64,000 nucleotides of DNA from Cryptosporangium arvum DSM 44712 (GTDB lineage: Bacteria > Actinomycetota > Actinomycetes > Mycobacteriales > Cryptosporangiaceae). Shown piece after piece: positions 1,182-12,909 of the stretch. The DNA lies in the NCBI RefSeq assembly GCF_000585375.1, contig NZ_KK073874.1:3906001-3970000 (forward strand). Direction: 5' to 3'. The notes beneath the pieces are model-generated. The model searched no databases. It was not told the origin of the DNA and saw only the letters and a program-made list of their open reading frames with translations. Numbering within the stretch: the first letter of the stretch is position 1; each line of letters starts with the position of its first letter. A program made the position numbers and the translations under genes.

Positions 1182-2657
1182 TCACTCGAGGAGACCGATG
1201 CTGGCGAGCACCGCCGAGCGGTAGAGCACCAGCGGGTCAGCCGACCCGTCCAGGCGCACGAGGACGATCTGGTCCCGCGCGCCGAGCGACGCCCGGCCGC
1301 CGGCGCCATCGCGGAGCGACACGACGACGTGTCTTCCGTCCGGGGTCGCGACGATCTCGCCGAGCCGTTGATCGTCGCCGACGTCGAGGAGCTCGGTGCG
1401 TCGGCCGTAGATGTCCGCCACGAGGAGGGCGTCGTTCCGCTCGTACAGCATGCGGCCACGGGTCAGCGCGAGCCTCGGCTGCGCGTGCGACGGTGCCCTG
1501 GTGACGTCACCACCCGCAGTGAGTGTGAGAACTTCACCCCCGGGTGAGAACCGCAGTCCGGCCGGGGAATCCGCGTCCATCCCGGCGACACCGGTAGCCG
1601 CCGGCGTCGCCTTCACCGCACGGAGCTGAGCGATGGCCAGATCCGACGACCAGACGCGGGTGGGCGACGGCGTCCCGAGGTCGGGATCCTCGTCCACCTC
1701 CGCGATCAGCGCGTAGTCCCCCGCGAACGTCGCGGTGACTCTCCCGAGGTCCGCCGGCCCGCCGATGATGGGGCGGACCTTCCCGCTCGGAAGGTCGACG
1801 ACGAGCAGGCGGGCGTCCGCCGTCGCCACGGCGTAGCGCCCGTCCCGGGCCAACGACACGTCACCGACCGGGCGCACCAGCGTCCGGACCGTACCCGCCG
1901 GGCTGATCAGGCTGAGCGCCCGGAGCCCTCGCACCAGATGCACGGCGACGAACGCCCCCTCGGCGAACACACCCCGCGTGAACGCCGGGACGGTCGTGCG
2001 CACGGCGCCCGTCGCCGTGTCGGCGATCACGAGCGAGCCCGACCGTTTCGCCGCCAGGTACCGGCCGTCCGACGACACCGCGGTCGGATACTCCGGCAGC
2101 CCCACCGCCTTCGACGGCGCGCCGGACGCCAGATCGATGCCGCCGAAGCGCGCGCTCGCCCCCTCGGCCCAGTACGCCCCACCGTCACGAGCGAGTTCGC
2201 AGGTACCCGCGGGCCGGTTGGTTCGCCGATCCGGTCCGATGGTGAGGCAGCCGGTGCCGGTGGCGGTGACCGTGGCCGAGAGGGGGAACACGCGATCGGG
2301 GTGGACGGAGTCCGGCAGCGTCACATCGAATACCCGCCCTCCGCTCAACAAGGCCGATCGCCGTTCGTCGCCCGGCCACCGGGCAACGGTCGGCAGCGTG
2401 GGGTTCCCCTGCGCGAGCCGCACGTGCTGCCGGACGGGCGCGACACCGGCGATCTCGTCGCCGAAACGCGCGACCGCCCGCAGCCCGGGGAGGTCGGTGC
2501 GCGACCCGTCCGGCGTCAAGAACACGGCCGGGCCCAGCCCGGTCACCCCCGCCGGGAGTGCGTTGACCCGCTCCGGCAGCGATTCGTCGGCGCGGGACCC
2601 GACACAGCCGCCGGCCGCCAGCACCAGGACCACCACTGCCGCCACCACCCGCTTCAC
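1182..2657 (-). CDS. Lipoprotein with beta-propeller-like repeats
   Basis: With the GTG start at 2657 the product begins VKRVV, then a hydrophobic stretch and the lipobox LAAGGC, a typical short lipoprotein signal. A start at 2753 would add 32 residues before the signal and is less likely. The rest (about 490 aa) is a series of strand-rich repeats with phrases such as SSDGRYLAAKRSG, SLARDGRYAVATADAR and ATPDGRHVVVSLRDG, the pattern of WD40/TolB-like propellers. No enzyme motif is visible. It would be anchored outside the membrane. It lies 147 bp downstream of the signal peptidase gene on the same strand, so it may belong to the export locus, but the link is positional only. Confidence 0.7.
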   Translation of the reverse strand: MKRVVAAVVVLVLAAGGCVGSRADESLPERVNALPAGVTGLGPAVFLTPDGSRTDLPGLRAVARFGDEIAGVAPVRQHVRLAQGNPTLPTVARWPGDERRSALLSGGRVFDVTLPDSVHPDRVFPLSATVTATGTGCLTIGPDRRTNRPAGTCELARDGGAYWAEGASARFGGIDLASGAPSKAVGLPEYPTAVSSDGRYLAAKRSGSLVIADTATGAVRTTVPAFTRGVFAEGAFVAVHLVRGLRALSLISPAGTVRTLVRPVGDVSLARDGRYAVATADARLLVVDLPSGKVRPIIGGPADLGRVTATFAGDYALIAEVDEDPDLGTPSPTRVWSSDLAIAQLRAVKATPAATGVAGMDADSPAGLRFSPGGEVLTLTAGGDVTRAPSHAQPRLALTRGRMLYERNDALLVADIYGRRTELLDVGDDQRLGEIVATPDGRHVVVSLRDGAGGRASLGARDQIVLVRLDGSADPLVLYRSAVLASIGLLE

Positions 2658-2804
2658 GCCGTGACCCACACCCGGTGGGCCGACGGGGGCACGCCGCACT
2701 GCCGCCCCGAACGTCCGGGCGAACGCACTGACGTCGGTGGACCCCACTCTCACCGCGATCTCCCCTGGACGGCGCCGGCAACGTCAACAGGGTCATCGCA
2801 CACA

Positions 2805-3281
2805 TCAGCCGTGTCCGCAGCAGATCCGTGCAGACTGCCGCCGCTGTGCCCGCGGACGCACGACGGCGCCGAGGAGGTTGCCGCCGGCGAAGTAGCCGAA
2901 CTGACGCGAGTCCGTCCCCGCCGGATTGTCGCCGAGGACGACCAGGCAGTCGTCGGGCACCACGTCCTCGGCGACCGCACCCAACGCCGGTACCCGCGTT
3001 CGGGGGACGGGATCGCCCGGCGCGGCCGCGACCCGTTTGATGACCCAGAACGGGTCGTCGATGGGCGGCGGCCCGCCCAGTCGCTTACCCGCGAGGATCA
3101 CGATCACCTGCCCGGCCCGGACCGCGGAGACGTGGCAGCGACGCACCAGGACCCGGTCACCGGAACGGTACGTGGGCTCCATGCTGAAGCCGGTGACCCG
3201 GACCACCACCAGGTTCCGCCGGACCCACACCGCGGCGGCGAGCACGCCACCGATCGGTGCCAGCGCCGCGACGATGTTCAC
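2805..3281 (-). CDS. S26 family signal peptidase
   Basis: This 158-aa protein has an N-terminal membrane segment (about residues 3-20), the catalytic serine in GFSMEPTY (Ser33), the general-base lysine in VIKRVAAAPGD (Lys82) and the box-E-like GDNPAGTDSRQFGYF. It is a complete, minimal type I signal peptidase of the S26 family, shorter than housekeeping LepB. The GTG start at 3281 overlaps the TGA of the ABC transporter gene (GTGA), so the two are translationally coupled. Dedicated S26 peptidases next to an ABC exporter and a small precursor peptide usually trim the exported peptide; here the candidate is the Cys-rich peptide at 5645-5821, which has an Ala-rich site before its first cysteine. 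Confidence 0.88.
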   Translation of the reverse strand: MNIVAALAPIGGVLAAAVWVRRNLVVVRVTGFSMEPTYRSGDRVLVRRCHVSAVRAGQVIVILAGKRLGGPPPIDDPFWVIKRVAAAPGDPVPRTRVPALGAVAEDVVPDDCLVVLGDNPAGTDSRQFGYFAGGNLLGAVVRPRAQRRQSARICCGHG

Positions 3282-5158
3282 GGTGCCGCCTCGACCGTCG
3301 CTTGATCTTCGAGGTAGCCGGTGGCCTGCAGCAGGAACAGGTGAGCGTAGATCCCGCCGGTGTTCATCAGGTCGGCGTGCGTGCCCTCCTCCACGACGAC
3401 GCCGTCGTCCATCACCGCGATGGCGTCGGCGTTCCGGATCGAGCCGAGACGGTGGGAGATGAGCACGCTGGTGCGCCCGGCGCGGTGCCGCTGCAGTCCG
3501 GCATGGATGCGGTACTCCGCCTCGGCGTCCATGCCGGACGACGGCTCGTCCAGGATCATCAGGTCGCGGCCGTCGCGCATGAAGGCGCGGGCGACCGCGA
3601 GCCGCTGCCACTGGCCGCCGGAGAGGACCACCCCGGTGGTGGGATCCTCGCGGTCGGTCTCGGTCATGAAGATCCGCGACAGCAGCGTCTGATAGCCGGC
3701 CGGGAGACCGGCGAGTTCGTCGTCGACACCGGCCCGCTGCGCCGCGGTGCGGATGCGGTCCTCGTCGTCGATCGCGGTGACGTCGCCGACGCCGATGTTC
3801 TCCGCCGCGGTCAGGTCGTACTCGACGAAGTCCTGGAAGACGGCGGTCACCCGCTCCCGCAGCGACGCCGGGTCGAGGTCGCGCAGGTCGACGCCGTCCC
3901 AGTACACCGCGCCCCGCTCCGGGTCGTAGAACCGGCACAGCAGCTTGATCAGCGTGCTCTTCCCGGAACCATTCCGCCCGACGAGCGCGGTCGCCCGGCC
4001 GACGGGGATCGTCAGGTTGACGCCGCGCAGCGCCCAGGGCGCGTCCGGTGTGTACCGGAACCACACGTCGCGCAGCTCGATGCCCTCGCGCAGCGGTGGC
4101 GCCTGCCGGGGGTGCGCGACGGCCGGTAGGTCGGACGGGCCGGTGACCACGGCACGGTAGTGGTCGAAGATCAGGAACTTCTGATGAAGCAGCGTGAACT
4201 GCCCGATCGCGTTCGACAGCGCGCTCTGCACTCCGGCGGTCGCACCGATGAACAGCGCGATGTCGCCGATCGACAGGTCACCCTGCCGGGCGGCCCGGAC
4301 CGCCCACACCAGGCCGCCGCCGGCGACCGCGGCGCCGAGCAGCGCGAGCCCGCCCTGCACGGCGAGCTCCCGGCGGTCGACGGCGCGGCGCGCGGCGTCG
4401 GCCTTGCGGCGTTCGGTGAGCATCCGCCTCTGCAGGAAGCCCGCGATCCCGAAGAGCCGGGTCTCCTTCGCGGCGTTGGCCCGCAGCAGCAGCTCGCGGT
4501 AGAACAGCTCACGGCGCTCGTTCGGACTGATCGTGAACGTCATGTCGGCGCGTCGGCGGGACAGCGCGAGTTCGGCGAAGAGCACCGGGATCGCGGCGAC
4601 CACGACGACGACCGCCATCACCGGGCTGATCACCACGAGCGACACCAGGAAACCGACCAGCGCGAGCACGGACCGGGCGGCGCCGAGACCACCGGCGACG
4701 ACGTCGGCGGGTCCGCGTTCGGACATCACCGCCATCTGGAGCCGGTCGAGGAACGCGGGCTGCTCGAACCGGACCAGCCCGATCAGCCGCCCGACCGACC
4801 CGTGCAGCCGTTCGATCGCGGTCAGGCTCGCCGTCCGGTTCAACTCGGCCTGCAGGTACTGGTCCAGTTGCGGCAGCGTCGCGGTCACGACGCCGGCGAG
4901 CGCCACGCCGGTGGCGAGTCCGACGAGGAGACCGGCCGGTCCGCCGGCGACGATCTGGTCGATCACGGCCCGGGTCAACCAGGTGACGGCGACCGGAGCC
5001 GCGGCACCGACCAGCGCCGAGACGGCCAGCAGCACCACGGCGCGGGGCGAGGCCAGCCAGGCGATGCGGACGGCCATCAGCGCGGCCGCCCGTGGCGACA
5101 CGTCCGGCGCCGTCGGTCCGGCGGCGGGTGGCATCCCGCCGGGTGGCGGCGTGGTCAC
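3278..5158 (-). CDS. ABC exporter, fused membrane and ATPase domains
   Basis: The 626-aa half transporter has six predicted membrane helices in the first 300 residues, followed by a nucleotide-binding domain: Walker A GRNGSGKST (about residue 393), Q-loop VFQDFVEYD, signature LSGGQWQRLAVARA, Walker B LMILDEPSSG and the switch histidine in SVLISHRLG. There is no N-terminal C39 protease domain, which fits with cleavage by the separate S26 peptidase. GTG at 5158 overlaps the stop of the upstream gene by 4 nt. It probably works as a homodimer exporting a peptide; the substrate is inferred from the neighbourhood only. Confidence 0.9.
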   Translation of the reverse strand: MTTPPPGGMPPAAGPTAPDVSPRAAALMAVRIAWLASPRAVVLLAVSALVGAAAPVAVTWLTRAVIDQIVAGGPAGLLVGLATGVALAGVVTATLPQLDQYLQAELNRTASLTAIERLHGSVGRLIGLVRFEQPAFLDRLQMAVMSERGPADVVAGGLGAARSVLALVGFLVSLVVISPVMAVVVVVAAIPVLFAELALSRRRADMTFTISPNERRELFYRELLLRANAAKETRLFGIAGFLQRRMLTERRKADAARRAVDRRELAVQGGLALLGAAVAGGGLVWAVRAARQGDLSIGDIALFIGATAGVQSALSNAIGQFTLLHQKFLIFDHYRAVVTGPSDLPAVAHPRQAPPLREGIELRDVWFRYTPDAPWALRGVNLTIPVGRATALVGRNGSGKSTLIKLLCRFYDPERGAVYWDGVDLRDLDPASLRERVTAVFQDFVEYDLTAAENIGVGDVTAIDDEDRIRTAAQRAGVDDELAGLPAGYQTLLSRIFMTETDREDPTTGVVLSGGQWQRLAVARAFMRDGRDLMILDEPSSGMDAEAEYRIHAGLQRHRAGRTSVLISHRLGSIRNADAIAVMDDGVVVEEGTHADLMNTGGIYAHLFLLQATGYLEDQATVEAAP

Positions 5159-5409
5159 GGGATCGGGACCGGCGTCAGCTCACCCAGCACGGCGGCAGCC
5201 GCCTCGCGGGTGCCCATGACGACGGCGATGACCCGGGACGCACCGCTGGGGAAGAAGTCCGTAGCCGTGCTTCCGACCGGCAGCACGGCGTCGTGCGGGC
5301 CCGGGACGGCGCTGACCTGGCGGAGCGTGCGGACGACCCCGAGGGTCAGCAGGAGGTTGAGCAGACCGAGCACACCCACGGCGAGGACGGCGGCGACGAG
5401 GTAGGGCAC
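5155..5409 (-). CDS. Short membrane protein, shrunken TlpA/thioredoxin-like partner
   Basis: The 84-aa product starts with a membrane anchor (PYLVAAVLAVGVLGLLNLLL) followed by GVVRTLRQ, which matches the N-terminus of the membrane-anchored TlpA-like proteins that sit beside MauE in actinomycetes. Those are normally about 180-200 aa with a FFSPGCxPC redox motif. Here the text runs from TDFFPSG directly to ASRVIAVVMGTREAAAAVL and then stops, so the CxxC segment and the C-terminal half appear to be missing. GTG at 5409 has a GAGAGGA ribosome site and the stop overlaps the ABC gene. It may keep only a structural role or be a translated relic. The family assignment is from memory of the anchor sequence. 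Confidence 0.55.
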   Translation of the reverse strand: MPYLVAAVLAVGVLGLLNLLLTLGVVRTLRQVSAVPGPHDAVLPVGSTATDFFPSGASRVIAVVMGTREAAAAVLGELTPVPIP

Positions 5410-5410
5410 G

Positions 5411-5581
5411 TCAGATCCTCTCCGTCGCGGGACCCGTCCCGACCGGCGTCGACCGGTCGGAGAGGAGGTCCGCGACGTCGTCGAAGGAGATCGTGAGAAC
5501 AGCGAGGACGAGGGGGCAGAAGATGGCGACGCCGACGCGCGCACCCGAGCACGAGATGGGCGCACGAACATCCGCCTCCAC
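5411..5581 (-). pseudogene. Possible MauE/DoxX-type membrane protein remnant
   Basis: The stretch between the Cys-rich peptide gene and the TlpA-like gene is open to the TGA at 5411-5413 and encodes, from a GTG at 5581, about 56 residues including one hydrophobic segment (GVAIFCPLVLAVLTISF) with an ISCSG segment just before it. In homologous actinomycete loci this position holds MauE, whose last helix follows a cysteine pair. This could be the tail of a deleted mauE. Its stop lies 1 nt before the next GTG, a normal operon junction, which argues that a real gene once ended here. Coding status is uncertain. Confidence 0.3.
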
Positions 5582-5644
5582 GGTGCGGCCGCTGCCGGCG
5601 CGCCGCCGGACCGGAACGGACCCGGTCCGGCGGCGACGGCGAAC

Positions 5645-5821
5645 TCAGCAGGTGCCGCAGCCGCGGCACTGCTTCACGTAGCCGCCGCTGGACTGCCAGA
5701 CCCAGTAGCACATCCTTCCGATGTAGGAGGACTGGCAGGAGTACTCGCAGAACGACGACGCCGCCGCCGCGGAGGTGGTCGGAACGAACAGGGACAACAG
5801 ACGGTCCGCAAGCCGGGTCAT
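5645..5821 (-). CDS. Small six-cysteine precursor peptide
   Basis: This 58-aa peptide starts at ATG 5821 with a strong AAGGAG site 7 nt upstream. The leader MTRLADRLLSLFVPTTSAAAA is amphipathic and ends in an alanine-rich stretch, like a signal-peptidase site. The remainder carries cysteines at 25, 29, 38, 52, 55 and 58, aromatic residues (YWVW) and a CRGCGTC end. Small Cys-rich proteins of this layout often lie upstream of MauE and TlpA-like redox genes in actinomycetes. Downstream on the same strand come an ABC exporter and a type I signal peptidase; upstream lies a SARP regulator. It is probably secreted and disulfide-bonded. Antimicrobial or signalling activity is only a guess. Confidence 0.75.
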   Translation of the reverse strand: MTRLADRLLSLFVPTTSAAAASSFCEYSCQSSYIGRMCYWVWQSSGGYVKQCRGCGTC

Positions 5822-5940
5822 GTACTGCTCCTTCGCTCGGACTGGTCGGTGAAGCCTCGCCACGATAAGCAGGCCGGCTCACCGTCAGCAATGCACAAAA
5901 GCGCAGCTCAGAGGCGTCTTCTACGCCGGTTCCACCGGAA

Positions 5941-7857
5941 CTAAACGGGGCGCCGGCCGACCGCAGCCGTGCCGACGACCGGAGGACGGAGGAACGCCGG
6001 CCGTGCGCGGGGGGCGGTCCGTCTGGGGGGTGTGCACAGCACGGGCGTCGCGTGTTCCTTCGCGAACAGCCGGGTCAGCGTGTGGACGCGGTACCAGGGT
6101 CGCCCGTACCGGTCCACCCCGGCGGTCGCGAGCAATCGTTGATCGACCAGCGCGCGCAACGCCTCCTCCGCGCTGGCCTCGTCGAAGCCGGAGACCACGT
6201 CGGCGACCCAGCCGGGGAAACTGACGACCTCGAGCATCGCGAGCCGCTGCAGCATCAACCGGGCCCGGTCGTCGAGCAGGACCCAGCCTTTCCGGATCGC
6301 CGCCCGGACGTCGAGGTCGCGCAGGTGCAGCTCGTCCAGCCGACGGCGTTCCTCGCCCATCTTGGCGAGGAGCCAGGTGAGCGACGTCTCGGGGGTGGCC
6401 GCGGCGCGGGCCGCGACGATGCGTACGGCGAGGGGAAGCCGACCGCACAGCTCGATCAGCCGCCGCGCCGCGTGCCGCTCCGCCTCCAGACGAGCGGTGC
6501 CGACCGCCCGCTCCAGCAGGCGCCACGCCTCGTCGAACGTGAACACGTCCAGGTCGACGAGCCGGCAGCCGGCCAGGCCGGACAGGCACGTGCGACTGGT
6601 CACGACCACCGCGCATCCGGCACCACCGGGGATCAGTGTCCGCACGTCCTGCTCCCGGTGGGCGTTCTGCACCAGGAGCAGGACGCGCCGGTCGGCGACT
6701 CGGCTGCGGAGCAGCGCAGCGCATTCGTCCGCACCGTTCGGAATGACGGAATCGGGTACTCCCGACGCTCGCAGGAACCCGGCGAGCACACCGCGGAGAT
6801 CCGCGATCCGTCCGGGACCCCCGTCGAGATCCGCGTAGAGCTGGCCGTCCGGATAGGCCCGGCGCAGATCGTGGGCGAGCCGGACCGCGAGCGCGCTCTT
6901 CCCGACCCCGGGCGGCCCGGAGATCGCCAACACGCGGACGGTCGTCGGATCCGCCGCATCCAGCGCCTGCCGGCCGAACCGCAGCTCCGCCTCCCGCCCG
7001 ACGAAGTCCGCCAGGTCGGCGGGTGTCTGCGCGGGCGCCGTCCAGCGGTCGGCACCGTCCGGCCGGCGAGCACGGGGTGCGGGACTCATCGTCTGATCGA
7101 CGTGCTCCGCCGCCAGTACATCGCGGTGCACGGCGCGCAGTTGCGGTCCGGGAACGATGCCGAACCGGTCGACGAGCCGGTCGTAGGTGACCCGGTAGGC
7201 GTCCAGTGCCTCGGCCCGCCGCCCGGTGGCGGCCAGGGCGCGCATCCACTGCCCGGCCAGCCGTTCCCGGGTCGGATGCTCGGCCACCAGCGCGCGGAGC
7301 TCCCCGAGGACCGCGCTCTGACGGTGGGCGCGCAGATCCGCTTCGATCCGCGCCTCCAGCGCCACCAGCCGCCGCTCCTCCAGGGCCGCGGCGTACGCCG
7401 CTCCGGTGCGGGTCGGCGGTACGTCCACGAGCGCCGGTCCCCGGTACAGGGCGAGCGCATCGGTCAACAGCAGCGAGGCGTCCTCCGCGTCGCCTCGCTG
7501 CAGCGCCTGGTGTCCCGCCACGCAGATCGCGTCGAAGCGGTGGACGTCGACGGCTTCCGGCGGCAGGTCGAGTCGGTAGCCACGGCCGTGCCCGACGACG
7601 CAACTCGCGCCGTCCGCCCCGAACGTCCGTCGTAGCGTCAGCACGTACCCCCGCACGAGGCTGTCGGCCGACGCCGGCGGTCCGTCGCCCCAGATCTCGG
7701 CGACGAGCCGATCGAGTGGCACGAGCTGACCGAGTTGTACGACGAGCACGGCGAGCAGCGCGCGAACCTTCGCGCCGGCGACCAGCCGCCACTCGTCACC
7801 GTTGTGGATCTCCATCGAACCAAGACAGCGACAGCGCAGAGTTGTCATTGTCGGCAA
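5941..7857 (-). CDS. SARP-family transcription regulator with NB-ARC ATPase
   Basis: The 638-aa protein has an OmpR-like winged-helix domain (about residues 8-98, ending GHGRGYRLDLP), the BTAD domain typical of SARP activators (about 105-250, RAEALDAYRVTYDRLVDRFG) and a P-loop ATPase domain with ISGPPGVGKSALAV (Lys320). The C-terminal TPR region of full AfsR proteins is absent, so it is a short AfsR-like form. A TTG at 7857 lies 5 nt after GGAGGGG; an ATG at 7848 is the alternative start. It is on the same strand as, and 120 bp upstream of, the Cys-rich peptide gene, so it is the natural candidate activator of that locus. Confidence 0.88.
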   Translation of the reverse strand: MPTMTTLRCRCLGSMEIHNGDEWRLVAGAKVRALLAVLVVQLGQLVPLDRLVAEIWGDGPPASADSLVRGYVLTLRRTFGADGASCVVGHGRGYRLDLPPEAVDVHRFDAICVAGHQALQRGDAEDASLLLTDALALYRGPALVDVPPTRTGAAYAAALEERRLVALEARIEADLRAHRQSAVLGELRALVAEHPTRERLAGQWMRALAATGRRAEALDAYRVTYDRLVDRFGIVPGPQLRAVHRDVLAAEHVDQTMSPAPRARRPDGADRWTAPAQTPADLADFVGREAELRFGRQALDAADPTTVRVLAISGPPGVGKSALAVRLAHDLRRAYPDGQLYADLDGGPGRIADLRGVLAGFLRASGVPDSVIPNGADECAALLRSRVADRRVLLLVQNAHREQDVRTLIPGGAGCAVVVTSRTCLSGLAGCRLVDLDVFTFDEAWRLLERAVGTARLEAERHAARRLIELCGRLPLAVRIVAARAAATPETSLTWLLAKMGEERRRLDELHLRDLDVRAAIRKGWVLLDDRARLMLQRLAMLEVVSFPGWVADVVSGFDEASAEEALRALVDQRLLATAGVDRYGRPWYRVHTLTRLFAKEHATPVLCTPPRRTAPRARPAFLRPPVVGTAAVGRRPV

Positions 7858-8312
7858 TCACCCCTCCGGGGGAGTCGATGCGCAGCGTGGGGACTTGATC
7901 TGTCCTTTCCTGACGGTGAGTCGTCCGATGCCAACGCGGCGCAGTATTACTCCCCGAGTGGTCGGCGTGGGCGAGAGCAGCCGATACTGTGCCCGGAGTT
8001 GAGGGTTCCCACAGCAGTGACAACCCGGTCGGCCTTCAGCCCACGTGTGGACCGCTCACGATGCGGAGCTCAGCGGGGCGCCGGCCGGGCGACGTCACCG
8101 CGGATACCGCGTCCGTGCCCCGGGTCGTGGTGGGCGGTGCCGCGGTCACCCACGCCGTGAGCCGGTCGAGGCCGACTGCGGCCCGGTGCCCGATGACGCG
8201 GTCGTCGTGGCCCTCGGCGTGCACGAGGTCCACGGTGAGCCCTTCCGGCCGGCGGTGGGCGGGTGGACCCGGGGATCTCACTCCCGAAATCTCCGGAGGC
8301 CGGGATGCGCCG
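7858..8312. other. Gene-poor stretch, possible hydrolase-tail remnant
   Basis: This 455-bp interval holds no convincing gene. On the minus strand 8036-8281 is open and reads EGLTVDLVHAEGHDDRVIGH and DRLTAWVTA, which recalls the tail of alpha/beta-hydrolase-like proteins, but start, ribosome site and most of the fold are lacking. It is best seen as an eroded fragment plus the promoter of the SARP gene. Confidence 0.35.
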
Positions 8313-9026
8313 TCAGCGCGGAGCCCGGTCGGCCTCCGGGTGAACCGGCAGCGGCCGGCTCGCGATCAGGCCACGGCGGTCGGACCAGCGGAACACCCGC
8401 CGAATCGGGTTCGAGCGCGCTCCCTTGACCGACTGCCGGACATCGACGGCGCCGGAGCGGGCGTCGATGCCTTGCACGACCCACTTCGCGTTCGCCTTGA
8501 ACTCCGTGGACGTCACGTAGTCGCGGACGTAGGGCCGGTAGTTGATCTTGCCGTGGTAGCCGTACACCTTCTTGAAGCTGTAGACGTAGTACCAGGTGTA
8601 GCCGACGGTGGTTTTGGTCGTCAGGCAGTTGAACTGGATCAGCTGGTCCGGCTGACCGTCCCGGGTCACATCGGCGGTGTCGACCTTGCGGACGTAGATC
8701 GAGTGGCGGCCGAGCTGGACCTTCCCGAAGTCGCTCTCGGCCGGCGTCTGCCGCTGGAACGACAGCCGCCCACCGGGGCACCTGCTGCCGTCCGGCAGGC
8801 GCGGGGTCGTCCACGGCACGTCCAGCGTCGCCTTCCGCCAGTCGAACTTCTCCGGCGAACTCGCGATCGTGAGCGACCGCTGGCCCGGCGGGGGCGCGCT
8901 CGCTGCCGTGGTCGGCGTCCCGGCCGCGGCCGCCGGGGCGCTGATCGCCGCACCTCCGGTCGCCGCGGCCACGACCGCGATCGCGGCCGCAGCAGCCCAC
9001 CGGCTACGTATTGTCCTGCTGGTCAT
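8313..9026 (-). CDS. Secreted protein of unknown function
   Basis: ATG at 9026 follows GGGGAGAA by 5 nt. The first 35 residues are a Sec signal peptide (MTSRTIRSRW, a long alanine/valine core, then SAPAAAAG). The mature protein (about 200 aa) is rich in tyrosine, lysine and strands (YTWYYVYSFKKVYGYHGK, YVRDYVTSTEF) and contains one DVTRDGQPDQLIQFNC segment that resembles an FG-GAP/calcium-loop motif. Two cysteines in the mature chain could pair. I do not recognise the family. Confidence 0.7.
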   Translation of the reverse strand: MTSRTIRSRWAAAAAIAVVAAATGGAAISAPAAAAGTPTTAASAPPPGQRSLTIASSPEKFDWRKATLDVPWTTPRLPDGSRCPGGRLSFQRQTPAESDFGKVQLGRHSIYVRKVDTADVTRDGQPDQLIQFNCLTTKTTVGYTWYYVYSFKKVYGYHGKINYRPYVRDYVTSTEFKANAKWVVQGIDARSGAVDVRQSVKGARSNPIRRVFRWSDRRGLIASRPLPVHPEADRAPR

Positions 9027-9295
9027 CTCGGTTCTCCCCGTTCCCACCGGATCGTCCGGTGACATCGGAGAGCATGCGCACGGCGTCGGGCGCCTCGCCA
9101 TTCGTCGTCGGCTGTCTGACAGGCACGCAACGGAACGACACCCGCTCGGTGGCGGAGCGGACGGTGCGTGCTGGGCCTGTCGGCCTCGTAAGAGGGACCC
9201 CTGGGCCTGGTGCGTGCCGTCGCTACGATCCTGATCGGACGGCCGACGGCCGAACGTTCGACTCCACGGGGAGTTGTGAAGACAAGGAGACGTCC

Positions 9296-9520
9296 GTGAA
9301 GCGATGGATCGCACGACTAGCCGTTCCGGTGATGATCGGCGGCGCGACGCTGGGGATCGCGGCCCCGGCCTCGGCGGGACAGTGGGTGTCAGGCGGGCAC
9401 TACGAGTACCTCAGCGGGTGTCTCAACGTCGGAGCCGCTCGGTACGCGCACGGGCTCTACGAGAGGTACGCCTGCGAGCGTGACTCGCCGGGATATCTGC
9501 TTCGGGGCTACATCGCCTGA
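9296..9520 (+). CDS. Small secreted two-cysteine protein
   Basis: GTG at 9296 follows AAGGAG by 6 nt. The 74-aa product has a clear signal peptide (VKRWIARLAVPVMIGGATLG, cleavage after APASAG) and a mature chain of about 45 residues with two cysteines 18 residues apart (GCLNVG and YACERD) and a C-terminal GYLLRGYIA. It has the same layout as the product of 22441-22674: signal peptide, G-x-Y near the start, first Cys in a helix-like segment, Y-x-C second Cys, and a hydrophobic, aromatic tail. Such mini-proteins are common in filamentous actinomycetes; the role is unknown. A strong hairpin follows the stop. Confidence 0.75.
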   Translation: MKRWIARLAVPVMIGGATLGIAAPASAGQWVSGGHYEYLSGCLNVGAARYAHGLYERYACERDSPGYLLRGYIA

Positions 9521-9529
9521 GTCATCCCC

Positions 9530-9560
9530 GGGCGCCGCGGTCTTACCGGCCGCGGCGCCC
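9530..9560 (+). terminator. Hairpin after small secreted protein gene
   Basis: An 11-bp perfect GC stem (GGGCGCCGCGG paired with CCGCGGCGCCC) with a 9-nt loop begins 9 nt after the stop codon at 9520. There is no T-run, as is usual for intrinsic terminators in high-GC actinomycetes. Confidence 0.7.
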
Positions 9561-9694
9561 ACGCCTTCACTTCGACCCACAGCTCGTTGAGCCCACGCAG
9601 CCAGTAACGGTGCATCCGAGCGTTCTCCGTGGTTCGCCGAGCCGGTGCGTCGGTGGTCCGGGGATGCCGTGGACCGGCGACTCGTAGCGCCGCG

Positions 9695-10435
9695 CTACAG
9701 GATGGTTCGTCCACCGTCGACGGCCAGCGTCGCCCCGGTGATGTAGCTGGCCCTGGGCGAGGCCAGGAACGCCACCGCCTCCGCGATCTCGTGGGGTTGA
9801 GCGGCGCGGCCGAGGACGCTGTTCTTCGTTCCGATGGCCTCGACGGTTTCCCGCCCGCTGGCGTTCACGACGCCATCCGAGAGGAAGGTTCCGGGTGCGA
9901 CGGTGTTGAAGCGGACACCCGACGCCGCGAACTCCTTCGCCCAGGTACGGGTGAAGGATTCCATCGCGGCCTTGGTGCCGCTGTACACCCCGAGGCCGGG
10001 TTCGGCCTGCCGGACCGCGTGGGTGGAGATGTTCACGACGCTGCCGCCTCCCCGCTCGATCATCGTCGGCAGCAGCGCCTTGGTCAGGAAGTACGGCGCT
10101 CGTACGTTCACCGCGAACAGCAGGTCGAAGGGCTCGGTCTCCTGCTCGAGGGTGTGCGCTGCGGGAAAGATGCCGGCGTTGTTGACGAGAACGTCGACGG
10201 GGCCCGCGGCCTCGGCCAGGCCCTGGACCGAGGCGGAATCGGCCAGGTCGGCCCGGACGAAGCGCGCGGTGCCTCCGGCTGCCTCGATCTCGCGCACGAC
10301 GGTGCTCCCGCGTTCGCTGTCGCGCCCGGAGACGATCACCGATGCGCCTCGTTCGGCGAGCAGCCGCGCCGTCGCGCGCCCGGCGCCGTTGGTGGTGGAG
10401 CCGGTCACCAGCGCGACGAGATTCTCGAAATCCAT
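9695..10435 (-). CDS. Short-chain dehydrogenase/reductase
   Basis: The 246-aa SDR has the cofactor motif VTGSTTNGAGRA, the structural VLVNNAGIF, the catalytic serine in VVNISTHA, the YSGTKAA Tyr/Lys pair and a C-terminal YITGATLAVDGGRT, as in FabG-like classical SDRs. ATG 10435 follows GGGGGAAA. An unusual TN insertion sits inside the glycine-rich loop. It is transcribed away from a LysR gene, a common arrangement in which the LysR protein controls the SDR. Substrate unknown. Confidence 0.88.
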   Translation of the reverse strand: MDFENLVALVTGSTTNGAGRATARLLAERGASVIVSGRDSERGSTVVREIEAAGGTARFVRADLADSASVQGLAEAAGPVDVLVNNAGIFPAAHTLEQETEPFDLLFAVNVRAPYFLTKALLPTMIERGGGSVVNISTHAVRQAEPGLGVYSGTKAAMESFTRTWAKEFAASGVRFNTVAPGTFLSDGVVNASGRETVEAIGTKNSVLGRAAQPHEIAEAVAFLASPRASYITGATLAVDGGRTIL

Positions 10436-10532
10436 AGGATTTTCCCCCTGTAGTAATGGACGTTTCTCCCGGTGGCGCCGGCCGGTGGGAGGAGAGCTCC
10501 GCAACCGCGAGCCACGCTATGAGGGGACAGCC

Positions 10533-10566
10533 ATAGAATCAAATAATCGAATACGATGATCTATAT
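10533..10566. promoter_or_regulatory. AT-rich divergent promoter with imperfect inverted repeat
   Basis: Between the SDR and LysR starts lies a conspicuously AT-rich patch. ATAGAATC at 10533-10540 is mirrored by GATCTAT at 10558-10564, an imperfect dyad of the size LysR-type regulators bind, and TATATAA-like sequence at 10561-10567 could serve as a -10 element. Its position between divergent genes supports an operator role; binding is inferred. Confidence 0.45.
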
Positions 10567-10601
10567 AAGTGTTCTCTATGTCAGTTCGGAGCAGTGGGCA
10601 C

Positions 10602-11510
10602 GTGAACCTGCGGCAGTACGAATACGCCCTGACCGTCGCCGAAGAAGGCTCCATGACGGCGGCAGCGGAGCGCCTGCGCGTATCGCAACCGTCCTTGTCG
10701 CAGCAGATCGGCGCTCTGGAGAAGCACCTGGGCGTTCGGCTGTTCACCCGCACCCCGAGCGGAATGGCGGTGACGGTCGCCGGGCGGGCTTTCCTCGCGG
10801 AGGCGAGGATCGCGACCACCGCATCCCGCCGGGCACTCGCGGCAGCCCGCGCGGCCGACGGAGATCTGGCCGGCGAACTCATCATCGCGGTGCACATGGG
10901 TCTGGGTGCGCGCCAGCTGCCCCGGGCGCTGGGGCGACTGCGTCAGCGCTACCCGAAGCTCCGGGTGACCCTCCACGAGGAGCCCGATCCCACGGAGATG
11001 GAGCGACTGGCCCGGGAGGGCACCCTGGACGCCATTCTCGTGCACCGGATCCCCGCCGGGTGCACGTTCGACACCCATGTGCTGGGCGAGGAGTCCTACG
11101 TCGCCGTGCTGCCGGACGGGCATCCGAAGCTGGCCGGCGGGACGGCCCTGAGCCTCGACGATCTGGTGACGGAGGGATGGGTGCGATTCCGCCGAACGAG
11201 CAAGCTCGACGACTATCTCGCCCGACTGCTCGACGACACGGGAACCAGCCCGACCATCGTGGCCAGCGCCTCGCAGATCACCACCGCGGTGCGACTCGCG
11301 GCGCAAGGCCTCGGCGTCACCGTGGTCCCGGCCTCGGCCGTCCCCGAAGGCCTCGAAAGGCTGGCCCGTCCTCTTCTGCCGCCGCTCACCGAGCCGGTTC
11401 TGCTCGGGTTGCGGCGCCACCCGGGGCCGGCGGAGAAGGTGCTGCTCGACCACCTCCGCCAGGAGGACTGGCGCGGCGTGGACGTCCCTGCCCCACCGGC
11501 GTCGACCTGA
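10602..11510 (+). CDS. LysR-family transcription regulator
   Basis: The product begins VNLRQYEYALTVAEEGSMTA, the classic LysR winged-helix N-terminus with recognition helix SQPSLSQQIGALEKHLG, followed by a substrate-binding domain (about residues 85-290, with ASQITTAVRLAAQGLGVTVV). GTG 10602 is chosen because LysR proteins start at this point and a GGAG lies 10 nt upstream; an in-frame ATG at 10578 is an alternative. It is divergent from the SDR at 9695-10435, which it probably controls together with itself. The effector is unknown. Confidence 0.88.
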   Translation: MNLRQYEYALTVAEEGSMTAAAERLRVSQPSLSQQIGALEKHLGVRLFTRTPSGMAVTVAGRAFLAEARIATTASRRALAAARAADGDLAGELIIAVHMGLGARQLPRALGRLRQRYPKLRVTLHEEPDPTEMERLAREGTLDAILVHRIPAGCTFDTHVLGEESYVAVLPDGHPKLAGGTALSLDDLVTEGWVRFRRTSKLDDYLARLLDDTGTSPTIVASASQITTAVRLAAQGLGVTVVPASAVPEGLERLARPLLPPLTEPVLLGLRRHPGPAEKVLLDHLRQEDWRGVDVPAPPAST

Positions 11511-11656
11511 CCTGCGCGGGCGAGGTCGCGATCGCCGAGGCCGGCACCCGCCTGGTCATCGCGGTCGGCGACGCGCAGCCGGGCCGGACGCCACCGGGAG
11601 TCGCTCCGCACGGACGTTCTCGGGGCCACTGTCGGTTTGCGTTACGGTGGTGCCCC

Positions 11657-11881
11657 GTGAAGCGACAGCGGGTGGGCTCCTCGCTCGTGGAGGACGTGCA
11701 GGCCGAGCCGCGGGAAGAGGTTCTGCCGGGGTTGCACTCCCTGCCCGATGCCGTCCGGGACTCCGTGGTCGCCGCCTACCAGCGCGCCCTCACCCCGGTG
11801 TTCCTCTACCTGGTACCGCTGTTCGCCGTCGGTGTCGTGCTGGCCCTTCCTTTGCCGGAGAAGGAGCTCGCGGACACCTGA
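11657..11881 (+). pseudogene. C-terminal remnant of an MFS drug exporter
   Basis: Only about 75 codons are left. The segment LPDAVRDSVVAAYQRALTPV followed by FLYLVPLFAVGVVLALPLPE and ending KELADT is the last helix and cytoplasmic tail of a 14-helix (DHA2/EmrB-type) MFS transporter. The upstream DNA in this frame does not continue the protein, so about 85% of the gene is lost. The GTG at 11657 may simply be an internal valine. Confidence 0.65.
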
Positions 11882-11981
11882 TGTGCCGACCACCCGCATG
11901 CGTCGAAGGGGTGATCGCGCCCTGACCTGACCCGGGTTCCCCGGTCGTGTGGCGGCGGGACGCCGGTAGTGTTCCCGGATC

Positions 11982-12457
11982 GTGGAGTCGACCTGGTGGA
12001 CGTGCTCGGCCGCGTTCGGGGCAGATCTGCTGATCGCGGTGGTGACCTCGCCGGCGGGGGTGTCGGGGCGGTCTTCCTGCTGCCGGTGCGGCTGAGCGTG
12101 TTGCCGGTGCGGTGACTCCGACGAATTCGTTGTTCAACGTGGTGGCCGGGCCGGGTGCGCTGTGGCGGTATGCCCGTACCGGGCAGCTGCGCGGCCGGTT
12201 GACCCGGCAGTTGCCCTGGTCTCTGGCGGTGTTTCCGGACGGTGCGACGCCGACCGGCGACTCCGAGGCGGGAGTGGCCCGGTGCGGTGATCACCGGGCT
12301 GGCGCCCCGTACTGGGAGCTCGGGCTGCTCGCCGGCGCCGGCGGACTGGTCGGCGGGTACGCCGGGTCCGGCTGCAGCCGAGGCTCCCGAGACGCTGCTG
12401 CGGGTCCTGCTGGGCGTCGTCGCGACTGGTACCGGTCTGCTGTACCTGGTCCGGTGA
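11982..12457 (+). pseudogene. Degraded TauE/SafE-family membrane permease
   Basis: Pieces of one TauE/SafE (DUF81) permease are spread over three frames. DLLIAVVTSPAGVSG (from 11982) is followed after a frameshift by FLLPVRLSVLPVR. TPTNSLFNVVAGPGALWRYA with RTGQLRGRLTRQL starts near 12115. YWELGLLAGAGGLVGGYAG ends near 12366. The tail APETLLRVLLGVVATGTGLL, ending in YLVR, appears in another frame to 12457. The middle of the protein is missing. It lies next to arsC and may once have belonged to the arsenic or sulfur export set. Confidence 0.7.
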
Positions 12458-12468
12458 GCCGCCGGATG

Positions 12469-12909
12469 TCAGCGGCGAGTCAGGTCGGTGAGCAGGGTCT
12501 CGACGTGGCCGCGGATCTCGTCGCGGATTTTCCGGACGACGCCGACGTCCTGGCCGGCGGGGTCGGTGAGGTTCCAGTCTTCGTAGCGTTTGCCGGGGAA
12601 CACGGGGCAGGCGTCGCCGCAGCCCATGGTGATGACGACGTCGGAGGCTCGGACGTCGTCGACGGTGAGGATCGTGGGTTTCTGGTCGGTGAGGTCGATG
12701 CCGACCTCGCGCATCGCCTCGACCGCGGCGGGGTTGATCGTCTCGGCGGGCGCCGACCCGGCTGACCGGACCTCGACGGTGTCACCGGCCAGGTGGGTGA
12801 GCCATCCGGCGGCCATCTGGGAGCGCCCGGCATTGTGGACGCAGACGAACAGAACGCTGGGCTTGCCGCCCAGTGCGGTCTCCGCGCCGGTCGACGGCAT
12901 TTCGGTCAT
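12469..12909 (-). CDS. arsC: Arsenate reductase, low-molecular-weight phosphatase fold
   Basis: The 146-aa protein opens with SVLFVCVHNAGRSQMAAGW, the CX5R phosphate loop of thioredoxin/mycothiol-linked ArsC, and carries the redox pair region ITMGCGDACPVFPGKRYEDW and the NLTDPAGQD catalytic aspartate loop. It reduces arsenate to arsenite in the cytosol. ATG 12909 lies 2 nt after the TGA of the aquaporin gene, so it is the last gene of the arsM-aqpS-arsC operon. The two C-terminal-side cysteines (GCGDAC) suggest a disulfide-relay mechanism. Confidence 0.92.
   Translation of the reverse strand: MTEMPSTGAETALGGKPSVLFVCVHNAGRSQMAAGWLTHLAGDTVEVRSAGSAPAETINPAAVEAMREVGIDLTDQKPTILTVDDVRASDVVITMGCGDACPVFPGKRYEDWNLTDPAGQDVGVVRKIRDEIRGHVETLLTDLTRR

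Follow-up and report, generated by a model that had tools for sequence, protein, structure and literature searches.

A reduced locus for a putative secreted Cys-rich peptide in Cryptosporangium arvum DSM 44712

Closest described systems

Three candidate RiPP families that include MauE, one of them also MauD, were previously identified in Streptomyces by decRiPPter (Kloosterman et al. 2020, PMC7794033). The precursors of these families contain at least eight Cys and MauE/MauD were suggested to modify them, the families being candidates only, with no product (PMC7794033). As stated in the same work, MauE is linked to disulfide formation in the maturation of methylamine dehydrogenase (PMC7794033). 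We analyzed a locus in a 64,000-nt stretch of the C. arvum genome (the window; NZ_KK073874.1, positions 3,906,001 to 3,970,000) which, judged by description, resembles the decRiPPter families in placing a small Cys-rich precursor beside MauE/MauD homologues, a transporter, a peptidase and a regulator. However, those families are from Streptomyces only, whereas the one described here spans several actinobacterial families and has a shared leader and an S26 cleavage site. Two of the decRiPPter features are missing from the window, i.e., MauE (only a tail is present, a full gene being found in the paralogous locus L009) and a precursor with at least eight Cys (six are present, whereas its nearest relatives L009 and L014 have eight), and it is most aptly described as a reduced variant of such loci. 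With regard to RiPP criteria, a leader and a peptidase are predicted for the window, and modification would consist of disulfides only. The initial annotation stated that no product of such a locus had been described. Our search of the literature, mostly without subscription papers, also found none, but clusters combining MauE with Cys-rich precursors were already on record as decRiPPter candidates (PMC7794033).

Three other systems bear comparison. MauE and MauD of methylamine dehydrogenase (PF07291; TIGR02661) are similar in that the paralogue's MauE is recognized by Pfam and the TlpA-like proteins carry CxxC with weak similarity to MauD (best 20.8 bits, against a TIGR02661 cut-off of 188.6), but in the window both redox proteins are reduced to remnants, and the locus contains no methylamine dehydrogenase genes. 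Actifensins, a group of defensin-like bacteriocins from Actinomyces with the spacing C-X5-12-C-X3-C-X9-10-C-X4-5-C-X-C, are secreted six-Cys actinobacterial peptides of ~4.1 kDa with three disulfides, a leader and ABC transporters nearby (PMC6989792), to which the predicted export and disulfides of the window peptide are comparable. In contrast, they have their own 32-aa leader, a subtilisin-like protease and a LuxR regulator, with no mention of S26, MauE or TlpA (PMC6989792), and the window peptide (C-x3-C-x8-C-x13-C-x2-C-x2-C) does not match the Cys spacing of actifensins or C6 defensin-like peptides. Finally, double-glycine exporters of the C39 type (TIGR01193, TIGR03796) share the ABC superfamily and a leader-bearing peptide. 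Unlike these, the window exporter lacks a C39 peptidase domain (Pfam scan), its peptide's leader lacks a GG site, and cleavage is assigned to a separate S26 enzyme; in an NCBIfam scan that included both models, all scores were far below cut-off.

The locus and its family

The locus occupies positions 2805-7857 of the window on the minus strand, where every component named in the initial annotation was found. A SARP-family regulator (5941-7857; Trans_reg_C, BTAD and NB-ARC; Pfam BTAD 7.1e-39, NB-ARC 1.5e-10) is followed by the 58-aa precursor peptide with six Cys (5645-5821), a member of a leader-sharing precursor family, and by a stem-loop just 3' of the peptide stop (5601-5635; perfect 14-bp stem, 7-nt loop). 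Next come the MauE-tail ORF (5411-5581), in which homology is clear from about 5542 downwards, and an 84-aa remnant of a TlpA/MauD-like membrane protein (5155-5409), delimited by alignment to the full-length gene of the sister species (G002). The series ends with a one-piece ABC exporter of 626 aa, comprising a membrane domain and an NBD (3278-5158; Pfam ABC_tran 4.7e-28), and an S26 (type I signal peptidase-like) membrane peptidase of 158 aa (2805-3281; Pfam Peptidase_S26 2.1e-14). The GTGA coupling of exporter and peptidase genes noted earlier was confirmed in the sequence: the exporter stop overlaps the GTG start of S26 at 3278-3281, and the stop of the TlpA remnant overlaps the GTG start of the exporter at 5155-5158. 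Since the three small ORFs (peptide, MauE tail and TlpA fragment) gave no convincing family match in Pfam or NCBIfam scans, they were identified through comparison with relatives. A lipoprotein-like, beta-propeller-like ORF lies just downstream of S26 (1182-2753, minus strand); considering that the sister species has a different neighbor there, it is outside the conserved locus.

To place the locus, we searched with the window exporter and defined membership of its subfamily by E <= 1e-120, which yielded matches in 49 of the 399 genomes sampled from the order and in 29 of the 395 sampled from the class. Iterative profiles were then used to annotate 113 neighborhoods together with loci from the same genome, the sister species and four named loci (Plantactinospora, two Streptomyces and Microbispora). 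The initial annotation had raised the question of whether homologous loci contain full-length MauE and TlpA-like genes, and 101 of the 122 exporter loci were found to have all four partners, i.e., a Cys-rich precursor, MauE, a TlpA-like protein and S26. Seven loci lacked only a full MauE; in eight, MauE and TlpA were present but S26 or the precursor was not; and the window was the only one without both MauE and TlpA. The window peptide likewise proved to have conserved homologues beside ABC and S26 genes: a homologous precursor was present nearby in 109 of the 122 related exporter loci, as counted with a profile trained iteratively on those very loci, while reversed ORFs gave no match to the precursor profile at E < 0.01.

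The 125 distinct precursors from these loci have a common leader, in most cases bearing a motif of the [AG]DR-[LM]L type, and in 110 of them P-x3-[AV]-x-A precedes the core. They contain 4-11 Cys, and the count is even in 115 of 125 (binomial p about 9e-24), although evenness does not separate an oxidized core from a metal-bound or reduced one. Precursors of close relatives mostly showed dN/dS values of 0.13-0.45, the exceptions being three closely related or short pairs. Among the partner proteins, CxxC is found in 125 of 129 TlpA homologues and CxCF in 116 of 124 MauE proteins, and no further modification gene was enriched in the neighborhoods, which otherwise held generic neighbors only. 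Taken together, the leader, even Cys number, CxxC/CxCF motifs and gene set point to secreted peptides with predicted disulfide bonds. In two related loci, L197 and L199, the full-length TlpA-like protein has CGPT instead of CxxC; precursor, MauE and S26 are present, and the annotation places a second TlpA-like gene upstream of the precursor.

The window precursor (MTRLADRLLSLFVPTTSAAAASSFCEYSCQSSYIGRMCYWVWQSSGGYVKQCRGCGTC) belongs to this family (profile E 5e-11; P-x3-A-x-A present). Its leader, MTRLADRLLSLFVP-TTSAAA, begins with the 11 residues MTRLADRLLSL, which are identical in the precursor of L009. Cleavage is predicted after AAA, or one residue later, to give a core of 37-38 aa. The initial annotation had envisaged three disulfides and 3.5-4 kDa; with three disulfides, the predicted mass of the mature peptide is slightly higher, 4.20-4.27 kDa. 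The corresponding monoisotopic values are 4192.7 Da for a core starting with SSFC and 4263.7 Da for one starting with ASSFC. An alignment to the eight-Cys peptides of L009 and L014 showed that the window peptide is missing positions 4 and 5 of their Cys pattern. The gene keeps its leader, ribosome-binding site, an even number of Cys and the 14-bp stem-loop. Stem-loops with z < -2 within 70 nt downstream were detected for 79 of 127 precursor genes, compared to 18 of 118 S26, 14 of 129 TlpA and 8 of 124 MauE genes of the family. The element is probably a partial terminator or an mRNA stabilizer that would favor precursor over exporter.

None of the precursor, ABC and S26 genes contains a frameshift or stop, and there is no excess of deviations at conserved columns of the window ABC (1 of 104 family-conserved columns) or S26 (0 of 15 columns conserved at 95%), the latter bearing an FSMEPT serine box and an IKR lysine box. 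The exporter groups within the family with those of L009, L014 and L036, the last being the locus of the sister species (tree support 99-100). The window SARP is 60% identical over 597 aa to that of L009, but at 638 aa it is shorter than its closest homologues (1101 and 1073 aa), ~430 C-terminal residues (the TPR part) being absent. However, a length of 600-640 aa is common among SARPs of this family; therefore, the shortened window SARP need not be broken, and we do not take its length as proof of decay.

A genome-wide search with the window peptide returned weak relatives whose neighborhoods were complete loci. In total, the 9.2-Mb genome carries six loci of the family, the window and five others, between 3.91 and 4.36 Mb. 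L009 (C1:4.23 Mb) is complete and has the same gene order as the window, with a SARP of 1101 aa, an eight-Cys peptide, MauE (181 aa, CRCFG), TlpA (181 aa, CPAC), S26 and an ABC exporter 69% identical to that of the window. The others are L010, L011, which comprises two adjacent systems, and L212 (C1:4.36 Mb). Outside the window locus, the genome thus has five full TlpA-like genes and three full MauE genes. The second system of L011 (C1:4084704-4100859, at 8226-12886) is more divergent, with an eight-Cys peptide, a short SARP, ABC, TlpA, MauE and a divergent S26, and its orthologue in the sister species is L154 (peptide dN/dS 0.19). L212 (C1:4352000-4368000, at 7364-10617) encodes TlpA (CEPC), ABC, S26 and an 11-Cys precursor whose cleavage site reads TTAGA|C, with no MauE adjoining.

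Redox gene remnants and selection

A MauE-like tail and a TlpA-like protein without its CxxC part had been reported in the initial annotation, and alignments to the MauE of L009 and the TlpA of the sister species bear out both. The MauE-tail ORF ends with the last ~34-37 residues of a MauE-family protein, the CxCF part and other membrane helices being absent; over 34 aa, it shares 68% identity with the C-terminus (residues 145-178) of the full-length L009 MauE (Pfam MauE 2.7e-17). The sister species has the same locus (L036), with ABC and S26 each about 88% identical to those of the window. There, too, MauE is a tail only, and precursor and SARP are absent, while TlpA is full-length and carries FFSPGCDPC, in which CxxC is CDPC. 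Upstream in L036 is an unrelated ABC-2 type permease gene, directly abutted by the MauE tail. Relative to this TlpA, the window copy shows three gaps, of 15, 132 and 138 nt, each of a length divisible by three. The 132-nt gap (junction 5253/5254) removed the CxxC segment and the 138-nt gap (junction 5169/5170) the FPT (cis-Pro)/C-terminal segment, leaving the N-terminal anchor and the overlap with the exporter start. Considering that both large gaps would be in frame by chance in about 1 of 9 cases, this frame-keeping is suggestive only. The mapped gaps and the reduction of MauE to a tail support the earlier proposal that the redox relay was deleted.

Profile coverage in the window is 0.19 for MauE and 0.32 for TlpA and, since neither is full-length, we filed the window as a reduced derivative of the family. 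In the window, similarity to MauE begins at residue 145, and in the sister species at residue 143; these similar points suggest that the loss of MauE may predate the split of the two species; judging from these alignments, the truncation may be common to both lineages or have arisen twice. Short forms of this kind occur in no other locus of the 122, except for a differently broken TlpA in L195. In that locus, TlpA is represented only by its C-terminal third (8863-9075), MauE and S26 are complete, and no precursor was found.

To assess constraint, we compared the window with the sister species by pairwise dN/dS, which averages the two lineages together. The ABC exporter gave 0.26 [0.19-0.37], whereas the TlpA remnant and the MauE tail gave 1.15 [0.53-4.09] and 0.97 [0.40-4.49], respectively; S26 (residues 1-141) was intermediate at 0.56 [0.25-1.34] and not clearly below 1. 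As a control, we used a complete locus of the same two genomes (the second system of L011 vs. L154), with values of 0.20 for ABC, 0.26 for S26, 0.29 for TlpA, 0.36 for MauE and 0.19 for the peptide. Fisher tests separated the redox remnants both from the window ABC (p 0.001) and from the control redox genes (p 0.011), but did not separate the window ABC from the control ABC (p 0.33). When L009 served as outgroup, the ABC branches showed 33 nonsynonymous and 36 synonymous changes in the window and 30 and 51 in the sister species, a slight, non-significant relaxation. By these measures, the redox remnants look unconstrained and the exporter still constrained. Functional short proteins encoded by the MauE tail and TlpA fragment were considered and rejected on account of dN/dS values of about 1 and because, apart from the broken TlpA in L195, none of the 122 loci has comparable forms. 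Since the sister species' copy is without a peptide, the constraint on its exporter has another cause or is old, at least in part.

Fate of the window peptide

We propose that the locus represents one paralogue of an export system for small disulfide-rich peptides that is widespread among actinobacteria, including many from soil. The precursor, which carries a short conserved leader (.. L[AG]DR[LM]L .. VP...A.A), would be made in the cytoplasm and leave through the dedicated one-piece ABC exporter. Cleavage after A-x-A by the membrane-anchored S26 peptidase would then release the Cys-rich core, whose cysteines, in complete loci, would be oxidized by MauE-like (CxCF) and TlpA/MauD-like (CxxC) proteins. 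The SARP would switch the operon on, and the stem-loop would keep output of precursor higher than that of exporter. MauE may have been reduced to a tail first, as in the sister species, followed by the two in-frame deletions in TlpA in the window lineage. Since precursor, exporter and peptidase are intact, the window peptide is probably still made, and we think it reasonably likely that it is still exported by ABC and cut by S26, with its disulfides formed in trans or spontaneously. Either the redox proteins encoded at the five other loci would supply them, or they would form unaided once the peptide is outside the cell. Some loci that lack MauE belong to genomes encoding MauE at other places (e.g., Plantactinospora mayteni, with three, as well as G008 and G520), which makes the sharing of redox proteins between loci plausible. 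The data are also compatible with a peptide that no longer needs oxidation from its own locus. An antimicrobial or signaling role for the peptide would be a guess.

Alternatively, the locus may be a decaying paralogue, which after losing its redox genes yields no useful product and is becoming a pseudogene cluster, the intact ABC and S26 frames merely reflecting recency. Four separate reductions (MauE, two TlpA segments and the TPR part of SARP) would fit such a course, as would the two Cys missing from the eight-Cys pattern of the nearest relatives, dN/dS values of about 1 for the remnants and the loosely constrained S26. The sister species has no peptide, SARP or most of MauE at the same locus, two other members of the genus gave no match to the peptide, TlpA remnant or exporter subfamily, and the five other family loci make that of the window dispensable. 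However, precursor, ABC and S26 are free of frameshifts and stops, the TlpA gaps are all multiples of three with stop/start coupling to the exporter kept, and constraint on ABC (0.26) equals that of the intact control (0.20). The precursor gene likewise retains its leader, ribosome-binding site, stem-loop and an even number of Cys, and the length of the SARP is a common one. On balance, we regard decay as the main rival, though rather unlikely. A self-contained, streamlined system, in which the peptide evolved to fold without dedicated oxidation, would account for the two Cys fewer than in the nearest relatives (positions 4 and 5) and for the clean exporter operon that is left. Six Cys, however, are also commonly found in precursors whose loci encode both redox proteins in full (44 of 125 precursors have six Cys), other redox pairs exist in the genome, so self-sufficiency need not be assumed, and a single locus of 122 shows the double loss. 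The last of these marks the loss as local rather than as a recurring type; the streamlined type suggested in the initial annotation is therefore not supported and was set aside as a recurring kind, and we consider a streamlined system highly improbable even for this one locus.

Least probable of all, with only a very slight chance of being correct, is that the Cys bind metal or stay reduced, the MauE/TlpA pair of complete loci being a reducing system. Many TlpA-type proteins are reductants. The peptides contain CxxC pairs, and a search of the PDB with the peptide profile gave only CxxC zinc-finger-like matches, the best of which was a zinc-finger protein. That match was weak, with no stretch passing alone, and would be expected of any CxxC...CxxC profile; moreover, the core would be exported into an oxidizing environment, and MauE is linked to disulfide formation in the maturation of methylamine dehydrogenase (PMC7794033). 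Export by ABC, cleavage by S26 and oxidation in trans or spontaneously remain our preferred reading.

Considered more broadly, the family, so far known only as genome-mining candidates, combines a single conserved leader with over 120 Cys-rich cores of great diversity, which makes it an attractive place to look for small disulfide-bonded natural products. We tentatively suggest, at somewhat less than even confidence, that it represents a large, uncharacterized actinobacterial class of disulfide-rich peptides with one leader, one exporter, one S26 step and one MauE/TlpA oxidation line in up to six loci per genome, in which oxidation may be supplied between loci and the window would be a natural redox-less mutant relying on its paralogues. 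The presence of a redox-less copy beside complete ones makes it testable whether the MauE- and TlpA-like proteins are needed for oxidation and can be used by a neighboring locus. Three loci (L102, L108 and L188) have MauE, TlpA and ABC but no S26 or matching precursor, and an adjoining ORF resembles, by eye, an ATP-grasp ligase; these possibly represent a related but different peptide pathway.
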